In this document: positions 29,423-47,500 of the stretch, one piece after another
Position numbering within the stretch: the first letter of the stretch is position 1
Layout of the letters: every line of letters begins with the position of its first letter
Assembly: GCA_003559855.1 (NCBI GenBank)
Contig: PWJZ01000048.1
Span: 1 to 49,032, forward strand
DNA length: 49,032 nt
Source of the DNA: Bacteroidales bacterium
GTDB lineage: Bacteria; Bacteroidota; Bacteroidia; Bacteroidales; UBA7960
Direction: 5' to 3'
Notes under the pieces: generated by a model
What the model was told of the DNA's origin: nothing
Database searches by the model: none
What the model saw: only the letters and a program-made list of their open reading frames with translations
Translations under genes and position numbers: made by a program

Positions 29423-30226
29423 TTATTTGTTTTTTTCCTTTTCTGAAGCCTGTTTTTCATCCTCTTTGTCTGCTTTTTCCTCATCCTCTTTATCAGCCTT
29501 CTGCTCAGCATCCTTGTCTTCCTTTACTTCAGACTCTTTGTCAGCCTTCTCCTCAGCATCCTTGTCTGCTTTTACTTCAGCCTCTTTGGCAGCCTTCTCC
29601 TCAGCATCCTTGTCTGCTTTTACTTCAGACTCTTTATCAGCCTTCTCCTCGGCATCCTTGTCTGCCTTTACTTCAGACTCTTTATCAGCCTTCTCCTCAG
29701 CATCCTTGTCTGCTTTTACTTCAGCCTCTTTGGCAGCCTTCTCCTCAGCATCCTTGTCTGCTTTTACTTCAGCCTTTTTATCAGCTTCTTCCCTGACCTC
29801 TTTTTCGACTTTTTCTTCCGACACTTTCTCAGCTTGTTCTTTTACCTTTTTATCGCTTTTTTCTTCAGTCTTTTCATCACTTTTTTCCACTGCTTTTTCC
29901 TTTTCCATTCTCTTTTTCTTATTATAAGCAATAGCATGTTTGTCAAGAGCCACCGTAAGAAAACGTATTACCCTCTCATCACGCCTTAACTCAAGCTCAA
30001 ATTTAGCTATCAATTCCGGTTCAGCCTTGAATTCTATCAAATGATAAAAACCTGTGGACTTTTTTTTAATTGGATATGTAAGCTTGCGAAGCCCCCAGTG
30101 ATCCTCATAAACAATCTCCGCCCCATTTTTTTTCAAATACCCCTGAAATTTACTTACCGCTTCCTTCATCTGTTCATCAGATAAAACGGGAGTCATAATG
30201 AAAACGGTTTCGTATTGTTTTTGCAT
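29423..30226 (-). CDS. rpsF: 30S ribosomal protein S6 with long repetitive charged C-terminal extension
   Basis: The first ~100 residues are ordinary S6 ([45 protein letters not shown]), which pairs with S18 on the 30S platform. Normal S6 is 95-130 residues; this one is 267. Residues about 105-267 are almost entirely Lys, Glu, Asp and Ala, with six consecutive 16-residue units of the form [16 protein letters not shown] at residues 152-247. The tail should be disordered or a long single helix. The frame stays open and the stop lies before the normal rpsR start, so this is not an obvious frameshift. The core call is certain. Confidence 0.97.
29486..29773 (-). repeat. Six-copy 48-bp tandem repeat inside rpsF
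   Basis: 288 bp made of six 48-bp units, each coding for 16 residues. Copies differ at a few positions (Ala/Ser at the first residue, Ala/Asp at the 14th), and the unit nearest the 3' end of the gene is the most diverged. Unit length is a multiple of three, so copy-number change keeps the frame. Confidence 0.95.
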
Positions 30227-30843: not shown

Positions 30844-31797
30844 ATGAAAAATTACATACTGCTTCTTTTGTTGACGGCTTTTCTGGTTTTTGGCTGCGAG
30901 CCTGCGGAAAAGCACAATTTGACACTTAGTCTTGATGTTGGCAAGACCTATACTATAGAGCAAGAGACCAGCCAGTTTTTCAGGCAAAAATTCATGGGGA
31001 TGGATTATGAGATGAAGCATCGTTTCAACGTGATTTACAACCTTTATGTGAAGGAATATGATAATGAGCAATATTTGCTTGAATTTGAATACGATGATCT
31101 GACCATGGATGTTGAAGGCTCGGGTATAAGCATGTCTGCGGGTTCGGGTAAAAATTATAATACTGAAGACACCCTAAACCTGATATTCAGGGCTTTTACC
31201 AAAAAGCCTTTTATGGTTGGAATGACTGTTAACGGCGAAATTACCTTTCTGGAGGGCATTGAAGAGTTTTTCGATCTGGTTATTGCGGACCTTGAATTTG
31301 ATGTTGATGAAGACGGGCGCACCGCCCTGGACGCTTTTGACCAATTTATAGGTAAAGGAGGTTTTAAAGACAACTTGAGTCAACTTACCGGTTACCTGCC
31401 CGGCAAACCCGTTGCTGTCAGACAAAAATGGGAAAACGAATATATACAAACAAATCTGGCAAATCTGGGCTTTTCAGGAAAATGGAAAAATAAATGGCAA
31501 CTTGTAGAAATTGATGATGATATTGCAAATATTACAGGTACCTCAAATTTTACTATTCTTAAAACCGATGATACTGATCAGGAAACAGGTTTAATGACGC
31601 TATCACAATTAGGAATGGATATTGAAATGGAAGGCGAACAAAATATGGATCATATTATTGACAGAACTACCGGATTAATTAAAGACGGAACGGTGGAGGC
31701 TAAAATGGACGGATATTTTAAAATGGGTCAAATTGATAAAAGTATGAACATTCCTGTCAGCTTCGAGATCATTTCAAAGATCAGACATATAGAATAA
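30844..31797 (+). CDS. Lipoprotein, DUF6263-like
   Basis: A 317-residue protein with a lipoprotein signal: basic start, hydrophobic core and lipobox LVFGC with Cys18. The mature part begins with LSLDVGKTYTIEQET and continues as alternating strands and acidic turns, with a GFSGKWKNKWQL block and a C-terminal DGTVEAKMDGYFKM strand pair. This pattern resembles the DUF6263 family of Bacteroidetes lipoproteins, whose role is unknown. It would be anchored in an envelope membrane. The recQ gene starts 15 bases downstream, so the two are probably co-transcribed, though no functional link is apparent. Lipoprotein call firm, family call moderate. Confidence 0.8.
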   Translation: MKNYILLLLLTAFLVFGCEPAEKHNLTLSLDVGKTYTIEQETSQFFRQKFMGMDYEMKHRFNVIYNLYVKEYDNEQYLLEFEYDDLTMDVEGSGISMSAGSGKNYNTEDTLNLIFRAFTKKPFMVGMTVNGEITFLEGIEEFFDLVIADLEFDVDEDGRTALDAFDQFIGKGGFKDNLSQLTGYLPGKPVAVRQKWENEYIQTNLANLGFSGKWKNKWQLVEIDDDIANITGTSNFTILKTDDTDQETGLMTLSQLGMDIEMEGEQNMDHIIDRTTGLIKDGTVEAKMDGYFKMGQIDKSMNIPVSFEIISKIRHIE

Positions 31798-31812
31798 ATT
31801 GGTTTATCATTA

Positions 31813-33729
31813 ATGGATTTAAAGCAGATTCTGTTAAAATACTGGGGTTATTCATCTTTCAGACCTTTACAGGAAGACATTATCAAGTCGGTTCTTGATG
31901 GCAGTGATACGCTGGCATTGATGCCAACCGGTGGCGGCAAATCAATATGTTTCCAGGTGCCGGCATTAGCAAGGGAAGGTATTTGCCTGGTAGTAAGCCC
32001 TTTGATAGCACTTATGAAGGATCAGGTTGCCAATCTTCATATAAAAGGCATTAATGCTGTTGCCGTTTATTCGGGGATGTCATCCGGAGAGATAGATATT
32101 ACGCTTGATAATTGTATTTACGGGTCGGTAAAGTTTTTGTATGTTTCACCCGAACGCTTGACTACCGACTTGATGCGCAGCAGATTACAAAAAATGAATG
32201 TAAACCTGGTCGCAATTGATGAAGCGCATTGCATCTCGCAATGGGGCTATGATTTCAGACCACCATACCTGCGAATAGCCGAAATACGCGAATATACCGG
32301 TAAAGCACCATTTTTGGCTCTGACAGCTACAGCTACCAAACAGGTTATGAACGACATTTGTGAAAAACTAGATTTCAAAAAACAAAATGTCTTTATAAAA
32401 AGTTTCGAACGGAAAAACCTCGTTTATGCCGCCGTTAAAGAAGAAGATAAATTGAAAAGACTTAAGGTGATGTGCAGCAAAGTAAAGGGAACAGGTATAG
32501 TGTATGTCAGAAGCAGGCGTAAAACCAGGGAGATATCTGATTTTCTGAACAAAAACTCCATATCAGCCGATTATTATCATGCAGGGCTTGATAATATCAC
32601 CAGGGAAAAGAAACAGATCGGATGGATGTCGGAAAGAATCAGGGTCATTGTTGCCACTAATGCTTTTGGCATGGGTATAGATAAGCCAAATGTACGCTTT
32701 GTAGCACACATGGATATGCCCGATTGCCCCGAATCATATTTCCAGGAAGCAGGCAGGGCAGGAAGAGACCTTAAAAATGCCTATGCTGTCTTGTTGTTCA
32801 ATGAAGCTGATATACTTGATGCACGTAACTTTTTCGAATTATCATATCCGACGCTGAAATTTATCAGGCAAGTCTATAGCACCATAGGAAACTATCTGCA
32901 AATTCCTATTGGCAGCGGTAAGGATATAAACTACGACTTTGAACTGCGTTCTTTTTGTGAAAATTACCAATTGAATCCGGTCTTAACTTTTAATGCGATA
33001 AAATTCCTGGAAAAAGAAGGTTATATTGCCGTTTCCGAAGCTCTCAGAAATCCGTCGCGAATGATATTCCTCCAAAATAAAGAGAACTTATACCGTTTCC
33101 AGGTGGCCAACCCGAAATACGATACTATCATAAAAACCATGCTCCGTTCATATACCGGCCTTTTTACGGAATACAGTAAAATTGACGAAAATGAGATAGC
33201 AAAACGTTTGAATGTCACTAAAGAAAATTTTATCAATCAATTGCTGAAATTAAAAGAATTTGGCATCGTTGATTATCAGCCTCAAAACAAAAAACCGCAA
33301 ATAACTTTCCTTACGGGCAGGCTTAATGAAAAGGATATTATTATTGCAAGGGAAAATTATCATATTCTAAAAGAATGTGCCCATAAACGGATGGATGCGA
33401 TGATCAATTATACTAAAAATGAGAATAAATGCCGCAGCCTGATGCTGCTTGATTATTTTGGAGAGAAAAGCGAAAACCGTTGCGGCAAGTGCGATGTTTG
33501 CCTTGAACGTAACAAGCTGAAATTAAGTAAGCTGGAATTTGACAAAGTAGTCGAACTCATTAAGCCTATACTGCGTGAAAATCCTCAATCGTTAGAAGAG
33601 CTTCTCTCAAAAACAAAAACAAACATACCTGAAAAAAAGATCATCAAGGTTATACGGTGGCTGAGAGACCAGGGCAAAATTGTTTTCGACAATGATGAAA
33701 ACCGGTTGCAATGGAAAAACGGCAAATAA
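31813..33729 (+). CDS. recQ: ATP-dependent DNA helicase RecQ
   Basis: A 638-residue superfamily 2 helicase. Motif 0 FRPLQEDII, Walker A PTGGGKS, DEAH box DEAHCISQWGYDFRP, the LTATAT motif, and the QEAGRAGRD motif VI are all visible in the first 330 residues. The RecQ zinc site follows (CRSLMLLDYFGE, then CGKCDVC), then a winged-helix region. I see no clear HRDC domain at the end. RecQ unwinds DNA 3' to 5' in recombination and repair. Shorter RecQ-like helicases of this layout are common in Bacteroidetes alongside a longer copy, so the exact paralogue is open. Confidence 0.95.
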   Translation: MDLKQILLKYWGYSSFRPLQEDIIKSVLDGSDTLALMPTGGGKSICFQVPALAREGICLVVSPLIALMKDQVANLHIKGINAVAVYSGMSSGEIDITLDNCIYGSVKFLYVSPERLTTDLMRSRLQKMNVNLVAIDEAHCISQWGYDFRPPYLRIAEIREYTGKAPFLALTATATKQVMNDICEKLDFKKQNVFIKSFERKNLVYAAVKEEDKLKRLKVMCSKVKGTGIVYVRSRRKTREISDFLNKNSISADYYHAGLDNITREKKQIGWMSERIRVIVATNAFGMGIDKPNVRFVAHMDMPDCPESYFQEAGRAGRDLKNAYAVLLFNEADILDARNFFELSYPTLKFIRQVYSTIGNYLQIPIGSGKDINYDFELRSFCENYQLNPVLTFNAIKFLEKEGYIAVSEALRNPSRMIFLQNKENLYRFQVANPKYDTIIKTMLRSYTGLFTEYSKIDENEIAKRLNVTKENFINQLLKLKEFGIVDYQPQNKKPQITFLTGRLNEKDIIIARENYHILKECAHKRMDAMINYTKNENKCRSLMLLDYFGEKSENRCGKCDVCLERNKLKLSKLEFDKVVELIKPILRENPQSLEELLSKTKTNIPEKKIIKVIRWLRDQGKIVFDNDENRLQWKNGK

Positions 33730-33766
33730 TAATGTCTCTTCTAAAACGGTTTACTTCTGTATGCAA

Positions 33767-34573
33767 TCACCTGATTGTAAAAACCTGGTAATCCATTCTT
33801 CTGATATCCGGCTCCATAGAATATATCCATTTAAAAACCTCTTCCTGAGTAGTAAGCTGATATTCTCCCTTGTAATTCAAAAATTCAACCGGTTGTTTTG
33901 TAAATACAAATATCAGCCTGTTGACTTCAGGGTCCCTGCCGCTTTTTTCCAGGTAATAGTCGACATATCCGAAAGGAAATTCCACCTTTTCCCTTGCCGG
34001 CATAATCATTTGATCTTCCCATGGATTCGGATACATCAGCACTGTTTCAGCGTCGGTGATATTAAATATATTAAGATAACTGTTAATGCTTGAATAAACC
34101 GAAAATGAGAGTGTTTCACCGCTTTCATAAACGCCTTTAATTCCTTCAACGCTAACGTTAAAAGCCGGGTCGGGGCGTGAGGAATATAAAATAACCGTGG
34201 CATCTAACGCAACTTCAACAGTAAAAAGGTTTGAATGAGGACATATTTTCCTTTGTTCATCAACAATTTCATATTCCAAAACCTGCCCCTGTAATTCGGC
34301 GTGTATATCGGTACTGAAAAACTCGCTGTAATCCCTGTCGGTTTCACTTCTGAATAACAGTTCATATGATGAAAGATGTTCGCTAACTCCTGCTTTTCTT
34401 AAGGCTTCGACTTTTGCATCGTTGACAGCTTCACGGCGGGCATCGCGTTCGCTTAAACCGCCGGCAATAATGCCAACTCCTGTAGCGCCGCTAACTTGCA
34501 GGGTTTCCTGGCTGAACAAACTACTGCTAATAAGCAAACCTATAATTGTTAAATAAATAAATGTTTTTCTCAT
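33767..34573 (-). CDS. Exported DUF4384 protein
   Basis: A 268-residue protein with a signal peptide (residues 1-21, ending LFSQ). The N-terminal half has a DARREAVNDAKVEALRKAGV helix like those of LPP20/FlgO-type proteins. The second half fits DUF4384: a YESGETLSFSVYSS strand, SYLNIFNI, MYPNPWEDQ and a later LIFVFTKQPVEF. DUF4384 domains are often found with caspase-like or kinase domains, here supplied in trans by the WD40-caspase gene two genes upstream. Probably periplasmic. The 3' end faces recQ with only 37 bases between stops and no terminator seen. Confidence 0.85.
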   Translation of the reverse strand: MRKTFIYLTIIGLLISSSLFSQETLQVSGATGVGIIAGGLSERDARREAVNDAKVEALRKAGVSEHLSSYELLFRSETDRDYSEFFSTDIHAELQGQVLEYEIVDEQRKICPHSNLFTVEVALDATVILYSSRPDPAFNVSVEGIKGVYESGETLSFSVYSSINSYLNIFNITDAETVLMYPNPWEDQMIMPAREKVEFPFGYVDYYLEKSGRDPEVNRLIFVFTKQPVEFLNYKGEYQLTTQEEVFKWIYSMEPDIRRMDYQVFTIR

Positions 34574-34745
34574 TTGTATAAAATGTATTTAAAATAACTT
34601 CTATATTGTTGAATGACGAATTAATACAAATTTACGAATTACTAATAATAGTCATTGGTCATTTGTTTATTCGTTTATTCGTTGAGCGTTTAATGTTGTT
34701 ATAGGCATTGACAACTATCAAGTGTCAACTATGTTTTGCCGGCTG

Positions 34746-34784
34746 CCGATTGAGCGTTAGTGAAATCCCGACCCTTCGGGATTA
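34746..34784 (-). repeat. Dispersed 39-bp repeat, copy 2
   Basis: Reverse-complement match (37 of 39) to 6367-6405, again with the hairpin ATCCCGACCCTTCGGGAT. It lies in the 291-bp gap between the DUF4384 and LPP20-like genes. Confidence 0.85.
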
Positions 34785-34864
34785 CCACCCACGCTCCCAC
34801 TCTCCCGCAATTTATTTTCGTTCAGTGACTGAGGGTTTTATCGAGCTTTAACCTATCTTGTTAT

Positions 34865-35446
34865 CTAATTACTCCTTTCTTTTTCCAGCTTTTCCATTTC
34901 TTCATCAAAAATTTGCTCAAATTTTTTCTTATCAAACAACAAATCGGATGTTTTTTCTTTGCCGATATCTTTTTCTATATTGTTAATAATATCGCCGCGG
35001 GGTGTTTCAACGGCAATATATACGGTATATCTTCCATTATCAAAATCAGTTTCACTGCATATAATTTCAACATTGCTAAGCTCCTGTTCTGCAACCGAAC
35101 TTGTTATGTCTTCAAACCGTTCGCTTGATACTAAATCATCCCCGACTCTCACCTCGGTAATGTATCTTTCCGTTACCGATTGCACTGTTACACTTATTGA
35201 TGCAGCTAAATTCGCATTGGCGTCAAGCCTTGCCATTCGTTGTGCTGTTCTCAGATTTGGGTTTGCAGCTGTGCCCGTAGCCCTGAAATAATACCTGTCA
35301 GAAGAATACTGAACTCCATGGCATGGCAAAACAATCATGTCAGACCTTGGATCTTGCAATTCATTTTTGAAGTTAAATATTGAACCTCGTAAAGTAATGC
35401 TGATTGCTATTAAACTTACAAATACAACAAAGTGTAGCTTTTTCAT
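34865..35446 (-). CDS. Exported LPP20-like protein
   Basis: A 193-residue protein with a signal peptide-like N-terminus (hydrophobic to about residue 20) but no lipobox cysteine. The core (RATGTAANPNLRTAQRMARL, followed by ANANLAASI and SVTVQSVTERY, then later strands around NVEIICSETDFDNGRYTVYIAVE) matches the LPP20 pattern: a helix rich in Ala and Arg followed by strands. The last 50 residues are charged and helical. It begins 26 bases after the WD40-caspase gene and shares the helix type with the DUF4384 protein, supporting a three-gene functional unit in the periplasm. Function unknown. Confidence 0.8.
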   Translation of the reverse strand: MKKLHFVVFVSLIAISITLRGSIFNFKNELQDPRSDMIVLPCHGVQYSSDRYYFRATGTAANPNLRTAQRMARLDANANLAASISVTVQSVTERYITEVRVGDDLVSSERFEDITSSVAEQELSNVEIICSETDFDNGRYTVYIAVETPRGDIINNIEKDIGKEKTSDLLFDKKKFEQIFDEEMEKLEKERSN

Positions 35447-35472
35447 CTGTATAAAGTATTTTTACTGTTTTC

Positions 35473-37884
35473 TCACCTTATTTTCCAGTTCAGCCATTGA
35501 TCTTCAACAGCCGGGCTTACGTTAGTTTGTGGTGTTTGTTCAGTATTGTTGATAATAGCCGATCTTACACCAATGGTTGTTGAAATATAATCAGACAGGT
35601 CTTTATATAAAATATTGCCTTCTGTTTCCCTAAGCTTGTCAAGCAGAAAGTATGTAAATATTCCATGTTGCTTGTCGCGGTAGGGATGAGCCGACTGGTT
35701 ATCACTGCTTGCTGAAAACACTACAAGGTTTCCATGCAGAAGGTGATCCTGGGGCCTCACTCTCACTCCGCGTGCTGAAACCAGCCCTACATTACGTGCC
35801 CCACCGCTGAAGCAGGCATCCAGAAATACGGTGATGCGTTCTGAAGGATACTCGGTAAGCTCCCTGTAAAGGTCATTGATCCTAACTGCAAAACGCAGGT
35901 TTGTTCCGGTAACATCAACCGGCATCAGGTGGGGCTCACGTGTCTGCTCATCAGGAAAACCATGACCTGCAAAATAGAAAATAATCTCGGCTCTGCCGTT
36001 AAGTGCTCTGATAATATGTTTTATCTTGTCTATTTCGTTATACATTTCAATAGCCCTGGCATTGGTAAGAAACAGAATGTTATCCTCGGGTACTCCAAAA
36101 ACTTTAATGGCATATTCACGAAACACATTTGCATCACGTATGGCATAGTCAACATTCGATTCCGATTGCAAACCAACCTGGTAAGAGCTATAATCCTCAT
36201 TACCTATTATCAGTGCAAAGCGGTACGGATTGGGTGGGTTAACAAAAGGTATGTCAAGCAGCTCCGAGTCAACAGTTACCGGTTGAGGAATGAGTGTTAA
36301 TTCTTCAGGATCAGGTTTCTTTTCAGTTACCGCCAGCTCTTTTGCAACTACAGCCGTCTCATCTTCTTCAGGCAATTCGACAACTTCCTCTGAAATTTCC
36401 GCCGCTTCCTCCTCTTCAGGAAATAATTCAGCTATTTCCACCGGTTTTATATCTTCAACTTCTTCAGTTACAAGGGGTTCTTCAGCCTCCTTCAATAATG
36501 CTTTTTCAATTTCAGCCACCTCTTTCTCGATCATTTCCTCATCAATATGCACCACCAGCTCTACCCTTACTTTTTCCTCGACAACCTCAGCAACTTCAGG
36601 CTTGTATTTAATATTCAATATATCGGAAGTGACAACCCCACCACGGTAATAAAGCTCTAATTTTGCGGTATTGTTCCCTTCATCCAGGTAAAGAACGCTT
36701 TCATCTTCAAACCATTCGCCGGGAAGGAACAGAACGTGTTCTTTACTTGAATATCTCTGTCCGTTTAAATATAGCACAATATGATCAGCCGGATATCCCG
36801 ATCTTATCCTGTAATTTGCCCTGAAAGTAAGGTTTGATGTTGTAATATCGTCTTGAGTTATCCATTCAACAACGGGTTTAGGTCTGGATTTTAAAATATC
36901 CTCGGCAATTACATCTTCAGAAGGCGGTTTAATACCAAGTGCTTCGGTATTCCATACCATAACATCTTTTGAGTATAGTGTGGAAGAGACAAACTCCTTA
37001 CCGTTAGGATTAAATGAGACCGACAGCACATAATAAGACTGTTTTTCCGAGTTAAAAACTATTCTTCCTGAATTTACCTCAATCATAATAAGGTAATTGT
37101 CGTGACCACCGCTTACCAGATACCTTCCATCGGGGCTAAAGTCAAGCGTTTCCACCCAACCTTCATGAGCAATTATTGAGTTTTGAAGCTCAAGGTTGTG
37201 AGCATTCCATATATTTATTTTATAATCATCGCCTCCGGTGGCAATAAAGTTGCCATTGGGGCTATAAGCAACAGCTCTCACCCAGCCCTCATGAGCATTT
37301 ACAGACCTTATCAGTGAACCGTTTGCAACATCCCATTCCTTAAGGTTTCCATCAGCACTGCCGGATATTACTTTATTTCCATCCGGATTAAAAGCAGCCG
37401 ACATTACTTCGCCTCTGTGTCCGGACAGTGTATGTATTAAACGGCTGTCGGAACGCCTCCATATTCTTACTGTTCTATCATGGCTTGCTGAGACAATATA
37501 ATTATTATCGGGGCTGAATGCAACGGATGTTACATCGCCTCTGTGACCTCTGAGTGACATAAGTTCATTGCCGGCATGAAAATCCCATACAGTAACCCTG
37601 TTATCCTTGCCGCCCGACACAATATAATTGCCGTCATTGGAAAATCGTACAGAAAGCGGAAACCCGCGTAGCCTTCCCAGCTCTTTGTACATTGTACCAC
37701 TCTCTGCATACCATATATAAATCCTGTTGTCTAAACCGCCGGTAACTATATATTTGCCATCGTGGCTGTAATCGGCACATACTACCTGATGCCTCCGCTG
37801 ACTTAATGTATTTTTCAGGCCTACCTGACTGTATATGGAGGCGAAACCTAAGCAGAAAATTGATAAAAATATTAGTTTTTTCAT
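35473..37884 (-). CDS. Exported WD40-propeller / caspase-like (C14) fusion protein
   Basis: An 803-residue protein in four parts: signal peptide (1-19, ending IYSQ); seven WD40 repeats (about 25-315, each with D-G-x-Y-I-V-S-G-G and ending in I/V-W), enough for one closed propeller; a beta region then a Glu-rich linker (about 425-550); and a caspase-like peptidase domain (about 555-803). In the latter, RFALIIGNEDY opens the fold, and His641 (AGHG) and Cys691 (DACFSGG) form the dyad. Caspase-type enzymes cleave after specific residues; here a sensor propeller and the protease share one chain, apparently in the periplasm. There is no T9SS tail. Substrate unknown. Confidence 0.92.
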   Translation of the reverse strand: MKKLIFLSIFCLGFASIYSQVGLKNTLSQRRHQVVCADYSHDGKYIVTGGLDNRIYIWYAESGTMYKELGRLRGFPLSVRFSNDGNYIVSGGKDNRVTVWDFHAGNELMSLRGHRGDVTSVAFSPDNNYIVSASHDRTVRIWRRSDSRLIHTLSGHRGEVMSAAFNPDGNKVISGSADGNLKEWDVANGSLIRSVNAHEGWVRAVAYSPNGNFIATGGDDYKINIWNAHNLELQNSIIAHEGWVETLDFSPDGRYLVSGGHDNYLIMIEVNSGRIVFNSEKQSYYVLSVSFNPNGKEFVSSTLYSKDVMVWNTEALGIKPPSEDVIAEDILKSRPKPVVEWITQDDITTSNLTFRANYRIRSGYPADHIVLYLNGQRYSSKEHVLFLPGEWFEDESVLYLDEGNNTAKLELYYRGGVVTSDILNIKYKPEVAEVVEEKVRVELVVHIDEEMIEKEVAEIEKALLKEAEEPLVTEEVEDIKPVEIAELFPEEEEAAEISEEVVELPEEDETAVVAKELAVTEKKPDPEELTLIPQPVTVDSELLDIPFVNPPNPYRFALIIGNEDYSSYQVGLQSESNVDYAIRDANVFREYAIKVFGVPEDNILFLTNARAIEMYNEIDKIKHIIRALNGRAEIIFYFAGHGFPDEQTREPHLMPVDVTGTNLRFAVRINDLYRELTEYPSERITVFLDACFSGGARNVGLVSARGVRVRPQDHLLHGNLVVFSASSDNQSAHPYRDKQHGIFTYFLLDKLRETEGNILYKDLSDYISTTIGVRSAIINNTEQTPQTNVSPAVEDQWLNWKIR

Positions 37885-38043
37885 CCTATTTAGACTTTAA
37901 TTATTTATGAACGGAATGTTATTGTTTAGTTCATGATTTATCATAAAGAAATAATTTAAATTAAACCGGACTTGTCATTGGTTAACAGTTATTTTTTCAT
38001 TTCACTTTTGACCTTTCGGCTTTGTTCAGGGCATGCTTTTAGT

Positions 38044-38634
38044 TTATAAAGTTCTGGCTTTAAACATGCTTATGTTTATTCCTGCCTGAAAATACCAGCT
38101 CATAAGCATATCTTCCGTATGATTAACTCCCTTGATACCACCTTGTAAAAACAAAGCGAAATTGTCGGTTAATGCAAAATCACTACCCAGGCCGGCTGTA
38201 AAGCCAATTTGAGTTTCCCAATCCATCATTGGTATATTTCCGCCAGTCATACGATAATAATTCAAACTTGCACCCCCATATACATAGGGATTGACACTTG
38301 TATGAGTCAAAAATCTGTATTTTGGACATAAACTTATTCCCATGAGATTATAATTGGCATCCGGAGCAAAAAACTCATCATGAGAAATAAAAGTAGAATA
38401 CTTGACAAGCATCACCATACCGAAAGACCGGCTGAAATTATACTGAGCGCCGGCATCTAAAGAGAACCCGTTATGAAAAACTTGTGAAAAAAATTCCGGC
38501 TGCATAGCTTGTACGTAACCGCCGGCTGCCTGAAAAGTAAATTTTTGCTCAAATTGTGCCTTTGAGCCTGTGTGATTCGATAAAAACAAAAGTATTGTAA
38601 ATACCGTTAATAAAGTTGGTTTGAAAACTTTCAT
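38044..38634 (-). CDS. Outer-membrane beta-barrel-like protein, paralogue A
   Basis: A 196-residue exported protein with a signal peptide (about 1-26) and alternating amphipathic strands typical of an eight-stranded outer-membrane barrel: DAGAQYNFSRSFGMVMLVKYSTF, GISLCPKYRFL, YVYGGASLNYY and a closing FQAGINISMFKARTL. It is closely similar to the gene directly upstream (38661-39269), including the terminal residues FKARTL. No enzymatic motif. It lies 159 bases ahead of the WD40-caspase gene on the same strand. Confidence 0.85.
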   Translation of the reverse strand: MKVFKPTLLTVFTILLFLSNHTGSKAQFEQKFTFQAAGGYVQAMQPEFFSQVFHNGFSLDAGAQYNFSRSFGMVMLVKYSTFISHDEFFAPDANYNLMGISLCPKYRFLTHTSVNPYVYGGASLNYYRMTGGNIPMMDWETQIGFTAGLGSDFALTDNFALFLQGGIKGVNHTEDMLMSWYFQAGINISMFKARTL

Positions 38635-38660
38635 GTTAATTATGGTTTGGCAATTATTTA

Positions 38661-39269
38661 TTATAAAGTTCTGGCTTTAAACATATTTAAATTAACCCCC
38701 ATCTGGAAAAAGAAAGAGTCAATATATACTTTGCCCTGGTCAACGCTGTTAAAGCCTCCCTGGGCAAACAAGGCAATGTTATCGTTTAATCTGAGATCAC
38801 CACCTGCGCCTGCTATAAACCCGAGACATAACGGTGAAACGTTAGAAACGGATTCTTCACCGGCAAACCCATGGGTTATGCTTATATAATTTACACTTGC
38901 TCCACCATAAATATAGGGGTTAAATCTGCTGTGAGGTAAAAAGCGAAGCTTTGGGCATAAATTTATTCCCAGCAAATTAAATTGCAACACATCGAGAATT
39001 GCATGAGGGTCTGACATATCAAGGAATGTGGAGTATTTAGCCATTGCAACAATAGCGGTTCTGCGGCTGAAGTTATACTGGATACCCGCGTCAATTGAGT
39101 ATCCGAGATTGTGAAAAATATCAAGCAAAGATTCCGGTCCTTGCGCAATTGTCATGCCGGCAGATGCCTGCAGGGTTATCTTTTGCTCAAATTGTGCAGA
39201 CAGTTTCCCCGGGCATATAATAGCCAGTATTATCAGGATCATTGAAAGTTTTAACAATATATTCTTCAT
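38661..39269 (-). CDS. Outer-membrane beta-barrel-like protein, paralogue B
   Basis: A 202-residue paralogue of the next gene, sharing QFEQKITLQAS, the DAGIQYNFSR strand, YIYGGASVNYI, ALFAQGG and the end FKARTL. I start at ATG 39269, which gives a clean signal peptide (MKNILLKL, hydrophobic to about residue 25); the frame is open further upstream, but that part overlaps the FISUMP gene and looks non-coding. Tandem duplication is the likely origin. The gap to paralogue A is 26 bases. Confidence 0.85.
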   Translation of the reverse strand: MKNILLKLSMILIILAIICPGKLSAQFEQKITLQASAGMTIAQGPESLLDIFHNLGYSIDAGIQYNFSRRTAIVAMAKYSTFLDMSDPHAILDVLQFNLLGINLCPKLRFLPHSRFNPYIYGGASVNYISITHGFAGEESVSNVSPLCLGFIAGAGGDLRLNDNIALFAQGGFNSVDQGKVYIDSFFFQMGVNLNMFKARTL

Positions 39270-39294
39270 TTTTTGATAATTTAATGTTGCCAAT

Positions 39295-40050
39295 TTATTT
39301 GTCTTTAATACATCTGACCGAGAATCCGTGTAAAGGATGAAAACGGCTATAGCCGGCGTATGCTCGATCATGGTGCGCTCCAAAGCCATAATAATGAGTG
39401 GCATCATGAACTGATGATGTCCACCAAAAAGCATGCGTACCAAGGTCACGTGATATTCCATGCGGATCAATTCTTCCGGCAGGCAGAGCGGAGAATCCAC
39501 TTACATTGCTTGCACCTGTGTTTGGGCTATCCCATCTGGGATGGTCATCGTGTGGTGCCTTCCTGGTGCTTTTCAATTTTCCGCCTGCATTGGTTCGTGT
39601 ACCAAGATAAACGGTCAGTATTTCCCACTCTTCCCTGGTTGGCACACGCCAACCAGCCGGGCAAAGACCCAAAGGATTGTCAATTACATATCCGTTATAC
39701 AAAGCCCCATAATGAACACCATAATCTTCGTAACTAAATTCATACCATGAATATAATCCTTCAGATGCATGGTGCCAGTCATTACTGTTCGAGACAAATT
39801 TGATCAGGGTGCCATCATTGTAGCGCGTTACCCTTAAATCTTCAGCCATCCATTCCTGCTCACCCATATCAAGCCATGGATGTCCTAAAATTACTGTTTC
39901 ATAAACATTCCCGTCAATGTCGGTGACCTCGCCCGTGGCTTTTAGATAATCATGAAGAACATCTTTCTCACATCCGTTGACGATCATTAAAACAAGAGCA
40001 ACAAAACTCAAGCAATAAATCCGGTATAGTATTTTTATCTTCATGTTCAT
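39295..40050 (-). CDS. FISUMP-domain lipoprotein
   Basis: A protein of about 250 residues with a lipoprotein signal (lipobox IVNGC) followed by a Fibrobacter succinogenes major paralogous (FISUMP) domain. Signatures: DIDGNVYETVILG, the QEWMAEDLRVTRYNDG block, GLCPAGWRVPTREEWE, SGFSALPAGR, WWTSS and the end FSVRCIKD. Such proteins are surface lipoproteins of Fibrobacter and Bacteroidetes with unknown role. The frame opens with TTG at 40062; I take ATG 40050, and ATG 40044 is equally possible. It heads the gene group running to 33767. Confidence 0.9.
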   Translation of the reverse strand: MNMKIKILYRIYCLSFVALVLMIVNGCEKDVLHDYLKATGEVTDIDGNVYETVILGHPWLDMGEQEWMAEDLRVTRYNDGTLIKFVSNSNDWHHASEGLYSWYEFSYEDYGVHYGALYNGYVIDNPLGLCPAGWRVPTREEWEILTVYLGTRTNAGGKLKSTRKAPHDDHPRWDSPNTGASNVSGFSALPAGRIDPHGISRDLGTHAFWWTSSVHDATHYYGFGAHHDRAYAGYSRFHPLHGFSVRCIKDK

Positions 40051-40062
40051 TAATTTAATCAA

Positions 40063-40397
40063 AAATTGTATTAATTAATCATAATATTCAAAAACATAAA
40101 AACTGACAGGCAGCCAAAATACAAATTATTTTATTTTAAAATTTCAGTAAAAAACGAAAAAGGTGTATTTATACTGAAAATAATAGAATAAAATGAACCA
40201 TTTTATTTATTAACACAAATTGATTATGTAGTAAAACTTTTGATTTTTTATAATATATTTTGTTATTTTTGGTGTATTATTTCTTGATTTATACAATTCT
40301 AATGGTTTTTGCATCTATTTTTGCAAATTCTGGTGGATAAGGGTTTCATTTTCTCAACACAAATTCAATTATTTATAAACAATAAATAAGATCGTCT
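40063..40397. other. AT-rich divergent intergenic region
   Basis: 335 bp, mostly A and T, between the FISUMP lipoprotein gene (-) and the TPR-like gene (+). It holds the candidate promoter at 40239-40271. No gene is seen. Confidence 0.6.
40239..40271 (+). promoter_or_regulatory. Candidate Bacteroidetes promoter of the 40398 gene
   Basis: TTTG at 40239-40242, a 21-bp spacer and TATTTTTG at 40264-40271 match the Bacteroidetes TTTG / TAnnTTTG consensus with correct spacing. This is the best-formed promoter in the window. The leader would be about 120 bases. Confidence 0.6.
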
Positions 40398-40883
40398 ATG
40401 AAAAAATCATTTTCACTTTTAATGATATCCTTGTTTATAATTCCTGTGATGGTATATTCACAGGATGGCAGGGCTTTAAGAGCTTCAAGGAACAGTTTCA
40501 GCTCTGCACAGGATAATTACAATAAGGGCAACTACCAGCAGGCTATCCGGGAATACAAAATTGTTGTCAACACTGTCCCTGCGAATATTGATTCGCGGAG
40601 AGATTTAACTAACAGGCTTGAATCTCTTATTGACCTTATAGATATTTATTTTTACAAGCATGTAAATATCAGCAAGGCTTGTGAATATGTGCATATCTAC
40701 AATAGAGATATGAATACCATAAGGGGTTCGGGTGTGCTTAGAGCCTACCGGCTACTGGAATTTCAGAAAAAAGAACAGGAATATGTTGACAAATATATGC
40801 CCAAATGTAAAACCTATGAACATATCGATGATGATATGGACAAATTCAGAAGAAAGTTTGATGAAGAAATGAAAGATAATTAG
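40398..40883 (+). CDS. Small exported TPR-like protein
   Basis: A 161-residue protein with a signal peptide (1-21, ending VYSQ). Residues 33-60 (SSAQDNYNKGNYQQAIREYK) form one recognisable TPR helix pair, and the remaining helices (SLIDLIDIYFYKH, KACEYVHIYN) continue the same style. The C-terminal tail is highly charged. It would serve as a periplasmic protein-protein interaction module. It is transcribed alone, ending at the terminator at 40966-41007. Partner unknown. Confidence 0.8.
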   Translation: MKKSFSLLMISLFIIPVMVYSQDGRALRASRNSFSSAQDNYNKGNYQQAIREYKIVVNTVPANIDSRRDLTNRLESLIDLIDIYFYKHVNISKACEYVHIYNRDMNTIRGSGVLRAYRLLEFQKKEQEYVDKYMPKCKTYEHIDDDMDKFRRKFDEEMKDN

Positions 40884-40965
40884 ATGGGCAACTCGTTTTT
40901 GCACAGCTTACAACAAAAACATCAAAAACTCCTGTAAATAAGAGATACTTTTTTTACTAAAACTC

Positions 40966-41007
40966 AAAAAGCCCTGCAGGCAGATTTCAAAAACCGCAGG
41001 GCTTTTT
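40966..41007. terminator. Bidirectional rho-independent terminator
   Basis: A perfect 12-bp stem AAAAAGCCCTGC/GCAGGGCTTTTT with an 18-base loop lies between the convergent genes ending at 40883 and 41072. The A and T runs at the stem ends serve both strands. Confidence 0.9.
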
Positions 41008-41071
41008 ACCGTCATAAAATATGTAAAAAAGAATAATGTTTCCTGTATATCAAAAATTCATAAGCCTTTTA

Positions 41072-44000
41072 TTACCGTACTATCTGAACACGTTCTGTTA
41101 TGACACTCCCGGCAGTATGTATCTGCATGACGTAAATGCCTGCAGGCAAGTGCTGTACGTTGATTTCTAAGCGTAATTGATCGACGGCAACATTTTTTAT
41201 TACCTGTCCGCTGACATCTATAAGCCTTAAATTACCGATCATTTCACTTGATTCAATGTAAAATTTATTACGTGCAGGGTTAGGAAATATTTTTACTTCT
41301 GCATCAGTAATATCTTTCACAGATACATCATCTTCGAAATTGGCTGTAAGCATGGCATCTTTAGCTGTCATAGTATATACAAAGCTTTTATTGTCACTTA
41401 CCACATTTCCTGTTGTATCAGTCCAGTTGATAAACTTCCAGCCTTCATTAACAGTAGTACTGACATTTACTTCTTCACCAGCGGGATATTCGCCTTCACC
41501 GCTGACAACACCTCCTTGTTCAGGAAAAGCTTTTAATGTCAGGGTATATGTTTCGTGATCCAAAGCAACATTCACATTAACATTCTCCTTATCCACAACA
41601 AGTAAATCCTCCACGTACTTGTATCCCTTTTTTGTTACAGAATAATAGTAAAAACCAACTTCAACATCCTCTATAACCACTTTACCCTCACCGCAGGTTG
41701 TATAGGTTTTCTCATCGAAAGTAACTTTTGCATCTTCAACAGGATTTTCATCAACATCAGTAACGATAAATGTAACAACACATTGCGGGTCATCACCTTC
41801 ATTTAGTGTTGCCTCTATGGTAATATCCGAGTCAACCACCTCAAATGTTCCCAGTTCGTTCTTATAGCCATCCTTGCAGATTATATACTTATACTCACCT
41901 TTCAGTGCCTGAAAGCTCACATAACCGTTGGTATCCGTATATAGAACAATATCTTCCACAAATGCCTGCAGGTTCCAGTTAAAATCAAGGTCATATTCCT
42001 CATACATTGAAACCCATTCCTGCCCGATCCTGATCATATCACCCTTGCCTGCCACAGCGGGGCCTCCATCACATCCGGCAGGAAATCCATCTTGTGTATT
42101 AAGGATCAATCCAAACCATAAAATATAAGAACTATCGATTATAAAAGGAGTATCAAGTTCAACGGTATTCCATTCTCCAACCACAACATTCTCAACTTCC
42201 CGGGAATAGGCTTCTTCAGCATCCTCTCCTACCCATATTACTATTGTGTAATCACAGTTTTCGTAATTGGGGAAAAAGCTGACCTTTGTGATCAGCTTTG
42301 AGTGATGTTCAGCTATATCCGGAGGTTCCCAACGGCTTGCTATTTCAAAAACTGCTGCACCTCCCATACCTATGGCCGTTACGTTTTCCCCGCTGTCCCA
42401 GTGGATCCAATCCCCTTGGCTCTCCGTTCTTGAAACAAAAGGCGACGGATATGCCCTGTTAAGTGAAGAAGGCATTTTATAGACCGCCTGAGAAGAACCC
42501 GCAACGGAAAAATGGTGTTTCAGAGATTCACCGTAGACCCCTTTCAATGACCTGCAATCTCTTTTGACAGTTGATACGCTTATTTTGGCATCTTGCACGG
42601 GATCATTCATAACATCAACAACACTGAATGTAACTATCAATGCTTCAGAAGAAAAATTGGCAGTAAGTGTTATATCATCACCGGGCATTTCGTAATGAAA
42701 ATTGGGTTTATTACTTATTACCATTCCTTTTTCATCTGTCCAGGTTTCGAATCTAAATTCGTAACTCGCACTTGCTGCAATATTTACCAATGCGCCTTCT
42801 GCAAAACTGCCTTCTCCGATAACGGTTCCTCCCTTTTCGGGATCAGCTGTAAGATGAAGAGTATAGAGTTCGGGGTCGGTTTCCTCCTTATAAGCCGCTA
42901 TAACATGCTTTATTTCCCTTAAAGTACGGGCATTATCGCCATGTTCAGGATGCCCCGCATAATCGCCCATATATTCGATGTCGGGATTGGAAAAATATGG
43001 AACAGTTTCAGCATCAATACCGTCTTCAAAAAACTGCCCGCCTGAATAAGTCATAACGTTACAATACATCTGATTATCATCTCCCATCCATCTCCAGCCT
43101 GCCGACCAAATATTTTCCTCCCAGTCATTCCATTGCGTTGGTCCGGGACTTGTATTTTGTTCTTTATGATGATGGCATCCCATATTGTGACCCATTTCGT
43201 GAATATGAGTATATGCTATACTTGCTTGTTGTACACGTGTAAGTGAAAATCCAAGCTCAGGCATCCCTGTTTTCCATGTAAGCAGCCAGGCAAGTCCTCC
43301 GACATCAGAGACGTTTGCAAAAATTGCCACCAGATCCGCTCCATAAATTTCCCGCCAGTCATGTACCTCTTCCATGTAACCCGAAATCTTATAGCCATTC
43401 CAATAATCACCCCATGGATTGTAATCAGGCGATGCCGTTAATCTTATCAGATCCACTGCTGAATTATCCCCAAATTCTTCATAATTGACCAATGCCGAAT
43501 TTACAAGTGTAACAGTAATACCTGTTTCACTATTATCCAGTACCAGTTGAGCTTTTGCCATAGACTGTGCAATGGTATTAAAAATAGATCCCTCATTTTT
43601 GTTGGCCCATAATGCGGCAGCAGGTGTATATACGATCATCACATCAATATTGGCAGTGTCTTCCCCGGTTTTTGCGGCAGCTGTCTTTAATCTTTCCAAT
43701 TGACTTTCATCCGGCTGCGGATATATGCCGGGAATTAACGGCGGACCTGACTCAATAACTACGTTTCGCAAATCATCAATATGCTTCAGGTAAGTATAAC
43801 CACTCCCGGCATCAGTCTTGATAACATACTTTGCATCCTTTTCAGGAATCCTTATTGTAGCAGTAATCAGATCGCCGGTAGCAGATAAAATCAAATATCC
43901 CAGCTGATGATCATCAAACCTGGCACGAATCGTCAAAGTACCGTTAATATTACGGCTGATGTAATCAATTGTAGCCAGATAAGAATGATCATCAAACAGG

Positions 44001-44218
44001 TCTATTAACAACTTATCGCCAACATCGTATGACTCCTCATCCAATATTCGATTATTAAGCTCGATAACACCTGTTTTTTTATAAGGCAAATGCAGGTCAA
44101 CATCTCCTAAATCACTCGAATCACCTAAACTTTCGAACATTCGAACAGTTTCCTGACCGGCAAGAAATAAAACCGGAAAAAATTGTAACAGCAATAAAAA
44201 TAAAAAAATGCGCCTCAT
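41072..44218 (-). CDS. T9SS-secreted reprolysin-like zinc metalloprotease with InlB-type repeats
   Basis: A 1048-residue secreted protease. In order: signal peptide (1-21), a propeptide-like region, a metzincin catalytic domain with the zinc motif H340-E-M-G-H344-N-M-G-C-H-H350 and a VMTYSGG Met-turn region, an InlB-type repeat (about 443-530), two carboxypeptidase-regulatory-like beta domains separated by a ~165-residue module shared with the neighbouring giant gene, a second InlB-type repeat (about 890-960), and a T9SS type A sorting domain (about 966-1048; IFPNPARNKFYIESSEM, ITERVQIVR). It should be exported by Sec, cross the outer membrane through T9SS, and be surface-anchored or released. 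Substrate unknown. Confidence 0.93.
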   Translation of the reverse strand: MRRIFLFLLLLQFFPVLFLAGQETVRMFESLGDSSDLGDVDLHLPYKKTGVIELNNRILDEESYDVGDKLLIDLFDDHSYLATIDYISRNINGTLTIRARFDDHQLGYLILSATGDLITATIRIPEKDAKYVIKTDAGSGYTYLKHIDDLRNVVIESGPPLIPGIYPQPDESQLERLKTAAAKTGEDTANIDVMIVYTPAAALWANKNEGSIFNTIAQSMAKAQLVLDNSETGITVTLVNSALVNYEEFGDNSAVDLIRLTASPDYNPWGDYWNGYKISGYMEEVHDWREIYGADLVAIFANVSDVGGLAWLLTWKTGMPELGFSLTRVQQASIAYTHIHEMGHNMGCHHHKEQNTSPGPTQWNDWEENIWSAGWRWMGDDNQMYCNVMTYSGGQFFEDGIDAETVPYFSNPDIEYMGDYAGHPEHGDNARTLREIKHVIAAYKEETDPELYTLHLTADPEKGGTVIGEGSFAEGALVNIAASASYEFRFETWTDEKGMVISNKPNFHYEMPGDDITLTANFSSEALIVTFSVVDVMNDPVQDAKISVSTVKRDCRSLKGVYGESLKHHFSVAGSSQAVYKMPSSLNRAYPSPFVSRTESQGDWIHWDSGENVTAIGMGGAAVFEIASRWEPPDIAEHHSKLITKVSFFPNYENCDYTIVIWVGEDAEEAYSREVENVVVGEWNTVELDTPFIIDSSYILWFGLILNTQDGFPAGCDGGPAVAGKGDMIRIGQEWVSMYEEYDLDFNWNLQAFVEDIVLYTDTNGYVSFQALKGEYKYIICKDGYKNELGTFEVVDSDITIEATLNEGDDPQCVVTFIVTDVDENPVEDAKVTFDEKTYTTCGEGKVVIEDVEVGFYYYSVTKKGYKYVEDLLVVDKENVNVNVALDHETYTLTLKAFPEQGGVVSGEGEYPAGEEVNVSTTVNEGWKFINWTDTTGNVVSDNKSFVYTMTAKDAMLTANFEDDVSVKDITDAEVKIFPNPARNKFYIESSEMIGNLRLIDVSGQVIKNVAVDQLRLEINVQHLPAGIYVMQIHTAGSVITERVQIVR

Positions 44219-44500: not shown

Positions 44501-47500
44501 TTACCTTGCAACCTGTACACGTTTGGTTATCACGGTTTCTCCTGTGTGTATCTGCATAAAATAGACCCCTGTCTTGAGGTTGTTTACGCTGATTTCTGTA
44601 TTTAATGCATCCACGTGGATATCTTTGACCACTTGCCCGCTGATGTCTATCAGGCGGATATGCTTGATCATTTCGCTTGATTCTACGTAAAACTTATCAC
44701 GTGCAGGGTTGGGGAATACCGACAATTCAACACCTGCAAGGTCTTCGACGGATACAAACTTAAAGTTTGCTGTCAGCGTAATATCCTTGTCAGGCATAAC
44801 AACTATTGTTGTTGCTGATTCCGGGTCATCAACATAGTCAATATCACCTGACCAGTTTTCGAATTCCCAGTCAACATCAACGGGTGTTGCTTTAATATCC
44901 ACTTTTTCGCCGGTAATATACTCGCCTTCACCTTCCACGGTACCTGCTTCTTCGGGTTCTGCTTTAATTGCAAGTGTGTATGTTTGTGGCGGTTCGGTGT
45001 CGAAGTTGGCAATCAGTGTGATATCGTCGGTGGGCATTGTTACTGTTGTTTCAGCCTTTTCCGGGTCGGCTACATAGTGTGTATCTCCTGTCCATTCGAC
45101 AAACAACCATCCTTCGTTAGGTTCTGCCGAAATTTCGACTGTTTCACCTTCCTCGTATTCACCATCACCGTGAACGTTGCCGCCTTCCACGGGGTCGGCA
45201 TTAAGTGCAAGGGTATAAAGTATTTGATAAAAGTTAGCTGTAAGAGTGACATCATCATCCGGCATAGTTACTGACGTGGCAGCCGAATTGGGGTTTTCAA
45301 CATGTTCCGTATCGCCTGTCCATTTAACAAATTCCCAGCCTTCATTGGCTTGTGCAGAAATTGCCACTTCCTCTCCCACATAGTATTCACCCTCACCGTC
45401 TACCGTTCCGCCTTCTTCAGGGTCAGCATTAAGTGCAAGGTTGTAAGGTGTTTGGGAAAAGACAGCTGTCAGGTTGACATCATCATCCGGCATAGTTACA
45501 GTTGCTACTGCAGATCCCGGCTCATCAACATGCTCAATGTCGCCTGTCCATTCGACAAACAACCATCCTTTGTTGGGTTCTGCCGAGATTTCTACTGTTT
45601 CCCCTTCCATGTATTCACCATCACCGTGAACGTTGCCACCTTCCACAGGGTCGGCATTAAGTTCAAGGGTATAAAGTATTTGAGAAAAGTTGGCTGTAAG
45701 AGTGACATCATCAGCCGGCATAGTTACTGACGTGGTAGCCGAATTGGGGTTTTCAACATGTTCAGTATCTCCTGTCCATTCAATAAATTCCCAGCCTTCG
45801 TTGGCTTCAGCAGAAATTTCCACTTCCTCTCCCACATAGTATTCACCCTCACCGTCTACCGTTCCGCCTTCTTCAGGGTCAGCATTAAGTGCAAGGTTGT
45901 AAGGTGTTTGGATAAAATTAGCTGTGAGAGTGACATCATCATCCGGCATAGTTACTGTTGCTATGGCAGATCCCGGATCATCAACATGCTCTATATCACC
46001 TGTCCATTCAACAAACTCCCAGCCCTCGTTAGCTTCAGCAGAAATTTCCACTTCCTCTCCCATATAGTATTCACCCTCACCGTCTACCGTTCCGCCTTCT
46101 TCAGGATCAGCATTAAGTGTGAGAGTGTGCTCCACATATTTATAAAGCGTCACGTGAATGTCCTTATCTTCATTTTCAACTGTGAAGTTACCCTCAAAGG
46201 TTTCATGTTCTTCTTTTTCCACATTGAAAACGTAATCGCCGGGTTCTGCTTCAAAAGAGGCAATACCGTCGCTATCTGTATAAAGTATAATAGAATAAGC
46301 ATCTTCTTCAACATATAAAGCCATATTCCAGTCACCTAAAATACCATAAACATTAAGATAATCCCAGGGTTCAGGATATACGCCAAGGATCACTGCATCA
46401 CCCTTATTCGGATAATTCCCTACGTCATCCAATCCATGAGGGAAAAACCCATCGCCAATGTCGTTCCATTCAATACCAAAGATAAGCCATTGGCTGGCAT
46501 CAATATTGAAAGGATCCTCCAATTCAATCTCATGCCATTGATTCAACTGATCCGAGAACATTTGGCTCACTTTTTCTGTCAGGTTGTTTATGTCAGGACC
46601 CTGCCATATCTTAATTATCGGTTCACCATCCATGGTGGGGTCTTGTTGATACACTGTGACTTCCGTGACCAGCCATCCGTCATAATCTGTGATATCGGAA
46701 GGTTCAAAGTGTATAGCACCTGTCCACCAACCCGGAGAAGTTAAACCAACTGCATTACCCTGGTTAATTCCGTCATCCCATCTGAGCCATTCGCCATCTC
46801 TGTCACTAATGTGATACACAGGAGAGATAATTTCGTCTGTTTCAGATTTTTCCAATACTAAAGCAGTGCTTTCGGATGTATAAGCTTTAGAATCTGTTTT
46901 TATAAGAGGTTCGTTAGATAATACGTTGTGGTTTTCTTCTCTTTCGTGATTTATGGATATTTTAGCATTTTCCACGGGATCTCCAAACTGGTCACTAACT
47001 ATAAAGGTTATTAAAGGTTCTTTTTCGTCAGTAACATATATATAATCTTCTTTTGTTTCGGTATACTGTCCATCTACAGTAAGGCTTACTGTTTTGTATC
47101 CCAATGTATTATATATCACTTCATGGGGTCCCTGACCTGTTGCTGTGGCAGGTTCGGCGTCTTCGCCAAAGTTCCACTCCCAGGTTGAGAATTCGCCCCC
47201 TCCGGAAGCATCGGTAAAGGTTACCGTTTCACCGGGAGCCACGGTAGTTGGTTCACCGACAAAATCGGCATATGGTTCGGTTTCGGTATAATAATAAACC
47301 GTTATTTTCCATGTGTTGTTGTCAACTTTATTATACGTTGTATTACATCCGCTGCCACCCCATGTTCTTCCGGCATGCAGTTCAAATACGATATCTCCTC
47401 CTCCCGTAACGCCATTAGCTATGTCGAGCCCGGTACGGCTATAAGAGTAAGTTCCTCCGGTAGTTCCTGTACCAGTTACAACCGATGGTTCATCTGCACC

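Follow-up and report, generated by a model that had tools for sequence, protein, structure and literature searches.

A predicted exported WD40 propeller-caspase encoded beside a conserved outer-membrane barrel gene in Bacteroidales

Introduction

What can a caspase-like protease do outside the cytoplasm, and what would the WD40 propeller in front of it contact there? The question is raised by a single gene in a 49,032-nt stretch of Bacteroidales DNA (contig PWJZ01000048.1 of assembly GCA_003559855.1; this whole stretch is called the window below). An earlier reading of the sequence, made without database searches (the original prediction), described the product as a sensor propeller fused to a caspase-like protease in the periplasm. 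Little is settled about what bacterial caspase homologues do, and discussion of them usually centers on programmed cell death. In this work we analyzed the chain, its relatives and its gene neighborhood computationally. The answer we favor, tentatively and at a little under an even chance, is an outer-membrane-coupled periplasmic caspase-fold protease: the propeller would be docked on a beta-barrel protein encoded in the same operon, and events at the surface would trigger cleavage of envelope proteins after Arg or Lys. The neighborhood with this barrel gene had been overlooked in the original prediction, as had a probable Ig-like region at about residues 330-430.

Results

An exported chain with a seven-bladed propeller

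As had been predicted, a signal peptide, seven WD40 repeats, a linker and a caspase domain lie in one chain of 803 aa, encoded by an open reading frame (ORF) with the coordinates and strand given before (Table 1). PF00400 (WD40) matches the chain in 6 stretches (E 2e-64), and seven repeats are found by a model derived from those of this chain and its relative in genome G020. When AlphaFold2 was run without related sequences, most block means of the propeller in the predicted local distance difference test (pLDDT) exceeded 80, and the model matches solved WD40 propellers (5yzv_B, template modeling (TM) score by target 0.95) and a seven-bladed designer protein (7big_A, TM score by target 0.93). 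The structure prediction called for earlier thus gave a good model of the propeller, by which the chain carries a seven-bladed WD40 fold, and a weak one of the catalytic domain. The region behind the propeller is probably Ig-like, judged by eye on a low-confidence model. The predicted Glu-rich linker is present, with 40 Asp/Glu vs. 9 Lys/Arg in residues 431-548; its length and composition vary among aligned relatives, and it was rejected as a conserved functional part.

The N-terminus MKKLIFLSIFCLGFASIYSQ obeys the Bacteroidetes Q-rule, and the predicted cut falls after MKKLIFLSIFCLGFASIYS, with an n/h/c layout and Gln at +1. Gln is exposed at +1 in most Bacteroidetes signal peptidase I substrates (PMC5837995). 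Gln20 is invariant in the 8 aligned WD40-caspases (8/8) and kept in 9/10 members of the propeller clade described below. A signal peptide with Gln at +1 was found in 13/13 chains that combine at least seven WD40 repeats with this caspase subfamily, window included (the set leaves out the WD40-bearing L119, with 5 repeats, and L053, with 2); the L195 chain starts in the same way. When the N-termini of the family were shuffled, 0.8% scored as signal peptide plus Gln. A comparison with homologues had been proposed as a check on the export claim, and it turned up no chain lacking the signal peptide or the catalytic dyad among these 13. We regard export by Sec and cleavage by signal peptidase I before Gln20 as strongly supported by this conservation. 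The opposite reading, a cytoplasmic protein whose N-terminal hydrophobic stretch has been misread, is barely credible: a cytoplasmic location was rejected on signal-peptide conservation, and the outer-membrane proteins encoded next to the gene also speak against it.

Is export peculiar to this chain? Matches to its caspase domain occur in 143 of the 393 genomes of the window's order. The 120 regions fetched are the top of that match list, with weaker listed matches left out; together with the window and small loci, and with identical ORFs merged, they yield 134 distinct family ORFs, and 128 remain for the signal-peptide count after exclusion of 6 that are cut at the 5' end. Under a simple rule, these 128 comprise 93 with a signal peptide plus Gln, 16 with a lipobox, 9 with a signal-peptide-like start and 10 with none, compared with 141, 62 and 60 in the first three classes among 568 neighboring genes; the start codon was moved from the first ATG in 5/128 family members, so that family starts were chosen more leniently than those of the neighbors. 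With the first ATG only and a simpler rule, 113/128 family members pass vs. 271/568 neighbors. Judged by appearance, some of the 10 members without a signal are gene fragments or have a broken frame. On these sequence counts, export is typical of a large caspase subfamily in the window's order and not peculiar to the window chain. The original prediction of an exported chain is supported, with the qualification that export is shared with many other caspases. The 2012 survey of bacterial metacaspases had already suspected that many of their N-terminal 'transmembrane helices' are signal peptides (PMC3501461).

Active site and family of the caspase domain

The caspase domain scores 55.5 bits against PF00656 (cut-off 21.4), which places it in Peptidase C14 with the dyad intact at His641 (FYFAGHGF) and Cys691 (FLDACFSG), as originally numbered; at 57.9 bits against a cut-off of 140 it falls outside the NCBIfam family caspase_w_EACC1 (NF047832). 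Searched as a single sequence, the domain found no solved relative. A 17-row family profile found human MALT1 as the best solved match (E 1.4e-6), followed by metacaspase-1, and MALT1 and metacaspases also come first by fold for the catalytic-domain model (mean pLDDT 56.6).

Five sequences are left out of the 129-domain family alignment: two pieces of L119, which has an in-frame stop, and the subfamily-B relatives L004, L005 and L007. The dyad His is kept in 126 of these domains and the Cys in 123, with Ser in all six that lack Cys; Asp584 is kept in 129/129 and Asp689 in 128/129. The His, the Cys and both Asp residues are intact in 13/13 WD40-caspase chains, window included. We take Asp584 to match MALT1 Asp365 by counting along the profile alignment, with the help of MALT1 His415. 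MALT1 Asp365 and Asp462 bind P1-Arg (PMC4626109). Cleavage after Arg or Lys is predicted because Asp584 and Asp689 align with these two residues, and the window protease is probably Arg/Lys-specific. The acidic S1 residues that serve as the metacaspase/orthocaspase criterion for a basic P1 are thus present, by alignment only. A basic residue at position 705, in the presumed p20-p10 loop, is kept in 120/129 family domains and would suit self-cleavage. The six members with Ser in place of the catalytic Cys (L127, L132, L134, L140, L143, and L157), three of them with the His changed too, are likely pseudo-caspases.

The N-terminal parts carried by the same catalytic domain are varied (WD40 propellers, lipoprotein domains and several unnamed types), and such varied front ends on one output domain resemble sensor or adaptor swapping. 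MORN-like repeats were seen by eye in the front parts of L042 and L044. On the caspase tree the WD40 label needs 9 changes; WD40-caspase fusions overall may therefore have several origins, the barrel-linked propeller clade being just one among these. Outside the order, a draw of 345 genomes from the phylum gave a best caspase match of 36% identity, and the subfamily therefore looks order-restricted. One scan of genome contigs returned a single distant locus. The window's genome encodes a second exported caspase on contig 97 (L159:5652-7544; 631 aa, subfamily B, N-terminal family unassigned), and this subfamily-B caspase is also found in two genomes of the window's genus. Three further WD40-bearing chains (L251, L253, and L255) have a third caspase-like type with GHG, and DACQSG in L251 and L255; the L253 sequence ends before that point, and the N-termini of L251 and L253 look like signal peptides by eye.

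A conserved barrel gene upstream of the caspase gene

Going upstream from the caspase gene, the window holds two outer-membrane beta-barrel genes and a FISUMP lipoprotein gene, with gaps of 159 bp (caspase-barrel), 26 bp (barrel-barrel) and 25 bp (barrel-FISUMP). The second barrel is 47-48% identical to the first and is not itself matched by Pfam at 0.01. The same barrel family lies directly upstream of a WD40-caspase gene, on the same strand, at seven loci in six genomes with gaps of 2-159 bp (at the other loci: G020 2, G183 2 and 52, G386 123, G087 22, and G337 2 bp). A reverse search with the barrel in the 393 genomes gave nine strong genes (E 1e-30 or better), two each in the window's genome, G183 and G386 and one each in G087, G418 and G337. 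Six of the nine adjoin a WD40-caspase gene, and a seventh, the second window barrel, is separated from one by a single gene. Across the 393 genomes the barrel occurs in 6, the propeller clade in 8 and both in 5 (p 4e-9), or in 5, 7 and 4 without the window's genome (p 2e-7); the cut-offs (1e-30 and 1e-60) were chosen after the lists were seen, and for barrel and propeller alike at most 6 or 7 candidates per genome were scored. Within the window's family the barrel is found only in G000 and G020 (46 genomes), and a close caspase match in the same two only (47 genomes). A draw of 178 genomes from the phylum gave, apart from the window's own, a barrel match of 4e-13 at best.

All ten barrels (10/10) end in a basic C-terminal tail, [KR][SA][KR]x[LI], beyond the last strand. 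The motif occurs in 0/25 distant barrel-like matches, three of which end in other basic stretches; these controls are weak matches and not a random sample, and a few may not be barrels. A conserved basic tail is also something that an Arg/Lys protease could cut, and this fits another explanation: a constitutive maturation protease that trims its operon's products, or other surface proteins, in the periplasm, with the propeller as a mere docking site and no sensing. The neighbors, surface lipoproteins and barrels, would suit such a task, and PorU, the caspase-fold sortase of type IX secretion, is a precedent. However, two barrels keep the tail with no adjoining caspase gene, so the protease alone does not explain it, and the great variety of N-terminal modules is easier to reconcile with regulation than with a single housekeeping task. 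We consider constitutive maturation unlikely. The comparison also bears on the 'sensor' of the original prediction: the propeller is real, but sensing goes beyond it, and the link to the barrel fits docking at least as well.

Propeller clade and exchange of the catalytic module

In a tree of 34 propellers, a clade of ten (bootstrap 99; Shimodaira-Hasegawa approximate likelihood ratio test (SH-aLRT) 95) contains all seven barrel-linked ones; beside the other 24 the barrel was found in 0/24 cases within the flanks examined, mostly about 1.5 kb. In G337 the clade propeller and the barrel are kept, and the caspase is 50% identical to subfamily B, which includes the exported paralogue on contig 97 of the window's own genome, and 23% identical to the window domain. 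In G083 propeller and caspase are encoded by separate, neighboring genes: the exported propeller protein ends in an OmpA domain, and the catalytic domain of the adjoining caspase is 70% identical to the window's. These arrangements suggest that the constant element alongside the barrel would be the propeller and not the catalytic domain. The loci L234, L235, L244, and L248 also contain WD40 propellers that have a signal-peptide-like start and lack a caspase motif, two of them in tandem in L235.

The OmpA part of the G083 propeller gene resembles PorE and CHU_0125, scoring under the cut-offs of those models, and this is in line with a structural scaffold at the outer membrane like PorE (PG1058), for which proteolysis would be of little importance. 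PorE, which combines a propeller with an OmpA domain, is located on the periplasmic face of the outer membrane (PMC5053529), and the catalytic Cys is lost in 6/129 family members. A scaffold is nevertheless quite unlikely, given that the dyad and both S1 Asp residues are retained in every seven-repeat WD40 chain.

Other genes around the locus

The features of the locus are listed in Table 1. A FISUMP lipoprotein gene stands upstream of the barrel at three caspase loci (window, L039, and L193) and, as in the window, upstream of the G418 barrel. Elsewhere this place is taken by PKD lipoproteins (L051 and L056), a GH114-like gene (L195) or an opposite-strand PKD gene (L048); no upstream lipoprotein was seen in L194, and L158 reaches the contig end. 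Since the gene type differs among barrel loci, we rejected the upstream lipoprotein as a fixed member of the cassette. The LPP20-family gene was rejected as an obligatory partner: it recurs in caspase loci and is unenriched as an immediate neighbor (4/19, p 0.56). DUF4384 genes are enriched beside exported caspases (21/32 adjacent and on the same strand, p 1.6e-8). In the reverse test a caspase motif was found in another ORF within about 1.5 kb at 3/30 DUF4384 loci, a count that includes one locus without a host ORF and in which the flank missed at least one known caspase (L047 = L269); DUF4384 was rejected as a dedicated partner on this test. The DUF4384 domain is carried by 23 cyanobacterial orthocaspases (PMC8283722). 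A 434-aa ORF beside the caspase of L105 is matched by both the iterated LPP20 and the DUF4384 model and is possibly a fusion of the two window neighbor types. Neighbor cluster C0 is a single-linkage mixture (6 FISUMP and 6 FGE-sulfatase among 43 scanned), and its enrichment was therefore not used.

Table 1. Features of the propeller-caspase locus, with positions in the window.
Feature	Position	Strand	Basis
Exported WD40 propeller-caspase, 803 aa	35473..37884	(-)	Single ORF, key residues checked
Signal peptide, residues 1-19, predicted cleavage before Gln20	37828..37884	(-)	Sequence, conservation, shuffle control
Seven-bladed WD40 propeller, residues 20-315	36940..37827	(-)	Pfam, repeat model, AlphaFold2, propeller tree
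Probable Ig-like beta domain, residues 330-430	36595..36897	(-)	By eye, low-confidence model; variable among relatives
Acidic linker, residues 431-548, unconserved	36241..36594	(-)	Composition, alignment
Caspase (Peptidase C14) domain, residues 549-803	35476..36240	(-)	PF00656, family profile, fold match
Catalytic His641 codon	35962..35964	(-)	Residue in FYFAGHGF; His in 126/129 homologous domains
Catalytic Cys691 codon	35812..35814	(-)	FLDACFSG; Asp689 two residues earlier; Cys in 123/129
Outer-membrane beta-barrel partner, 196 aa, tail KARTL	38044..38634	(-)	PF13505, conserved neighbor
Second barrel paralogue	38661..39269	(-)	Start by homology; listed ORF reaches 39500
FISUMP-domain surface lipoprotein, lipobox VNGC by eye	39295..40062	(-)	PF09603, E 4.5e-34
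LPP20-family exported protein, 26 bp downstream of caspase gene	34865..35446	(-)	PF02169
DUF4384 exported protein, 291 bp beyond LPP20 gene, may be a separate transcript	33767..34573	(-)	PF14326

Two scans of viral contigs returned one and the same contig, from IMG/VR. Its stretch L162:2957-8941 encodes an exported caspase (49% identity) belonging to the window's subfamily, together with a FISUMP gene; type I restriction-modification genes and a phage-type repressor adjoin them. This neighborhood would fit a suicide or defence protease of the envelope that responds to phage or to damage at the barrel, and caspase-fold proteases are employed by other defence systems. The patchy distribution points the same way, with any caspase match in 5/47 genomes of the window's family and a close one in 2/47 (G000 and G020). 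But the viral contig is a single one, and no defence gene was noticed among the ten annotated window proteins at 30844-44218. PADLOC, run on the three genes at 33767-37884, gave a general 'caspase' match (E 8.9e-10) and a HEAT-ARM match (E 1.1e-20) on residues 79-190 of the WD40 part, which we read as a repeat match. A role in defence is very unlikely on this evidence.

Three more ORFs of the window, all on the minus strand, were noted. At 29423-30226 lies a ribosomal protein S6-like ORF (by eye) with a long Lys/Glu/Ala-rich C-terminal extension made up of a 48-bp tandem repeat (6.8 copies, 29466-29789). The other two are large: the ORF at 41072-44218 combines an M12-type metalloprotease domain with a type IX sorting domain, and the one at 44501-49024 contains a 228-bp tandem repeat at 45082-46119.

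Discussion

Proposed mechanism

How might the parts work together? The mature chain is probably retained in the periplasm because neither a type IX sorting domain nor, by eye, a lipobox is present in it; such a sorting domain is absent from its two NCBIfam matches at E 0.01, and its C-terminus is the caspase domain. The propeller would bind the periplasmic side of the operon-encoded barrel, as the conserved gene pairing and the co-occurrence suggest, and the contact may be the invariant basic tail of the barrel. The catalytic domain, hung on a variable linker, would cut after Arg or Lys. A change in the barrel or in a surface lipoprotein (ligand, damage or mis-assembly) might bring catalytic domains together or free them, and these would then cut envelope proteins, with the neighboring lipoproteins and the barrel tails as candidate substrates. 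The original prediction had asked what could be cleaved in a periplasm without ATP; catalysis by caspase-fold proteases requires none, and its lack there is no obstacle.

Several observations weigh against the coupling of this protease to the barrel or limit how far it can be taken. Three members of the propeller clade (L038, L040, and L041) have no such barrel in the fetched stretch, and their genomes (G083, G142, and G242) gave no barrel-search match among the at most seven candidates scored in each. Two of the strong barrel genes, one in G386 and one in G418, stand without a nearby caspase. The propeller-barrel pair is therefore not obligatory. Under the approximately unbiased (AU) test, a clade made up of just the seven barrel-linked propellers is rejected (p 0.009), and loss or gain of the barrel is therefore implied. 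The swap of the catalytic module is seen in one genome only, a close caspase match is absent from the three other genomes of the window's genus, and the catalytic-domain model is weak, so that no residue contacts were taken from it.

A broader proposal is rather doubtful but would account for the swap: the propeller-barrel pair may serve as a receptor platform at the outer membrane that is reused with different caspase subfamilies as its output. In this scheme the propeller would read the KSKxL-like tail, and surface events would be turned into periplasmic cleavage after Arg or Lys. If true, this would be an extracytoplasmic counterpart of receptor-driven caspase activation without ATP. The pairing of an exported caspase with one outer-membrane protein gives the protease a defined place and a candidate upstream partner in a small testable system, and the fact that the catalytic domain changes while propeller and barrel stay points to the contact worth seeking first.

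Comparison with known systems

WD40 is the most frequent partner domain of bacterial caspase homologues (73/671), and OmpA domains were noted in 14 of their operons (PMC3501461, in the part available). The window chain shares with the orthocaspases and metacaspases treated there the caspase fold with its His/Cys dyad, the WD40 partner and possible signal peptides; the exported N-terminal seven-bladed propeller, the conserved barrel partner and the swapped catalytic module are not described in that portion (PMC3501461). With PorE/PG1058 and CHU_0125 it shares a periplasmic propeller at the Bacteroidota outer membrane (PorE: PMC5053529), whereas no caspase domain is described for them in the available text, and the window chain, which has no OmpA match in the NCBIfam search, does not belong to the PorE type. 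The cassette is not described in the open-licence literature, judged on title and abstract start among the matches listed. The class is thus known, and a barrel-propeller platform with an exchangeable catalytic module is undescribed as far as open-licence literature searches go.

PorU and the gingipains (C25) are exported caspase-fold proteases of Bacteroidota as well, and they are type IX cargo or sortase; the window chain differs in lacking a type IX sorting domain and is not such cargo. DegS, a periplasmic outer-membrane-stress protease, reads the C-terminal ends of outer-membrane proteins much as we propose for the propeller; the resemblance is a functional analogy only, as DegS is an unrelated serine protease with a PDZ domain. 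Human MALT1, a cytoplasmic signaling protease with other regulatory domains and in this unlike the window chain, is the closest solved relative of the family profile, and its P1-Arg-binding Asp residues match those of the window protease.

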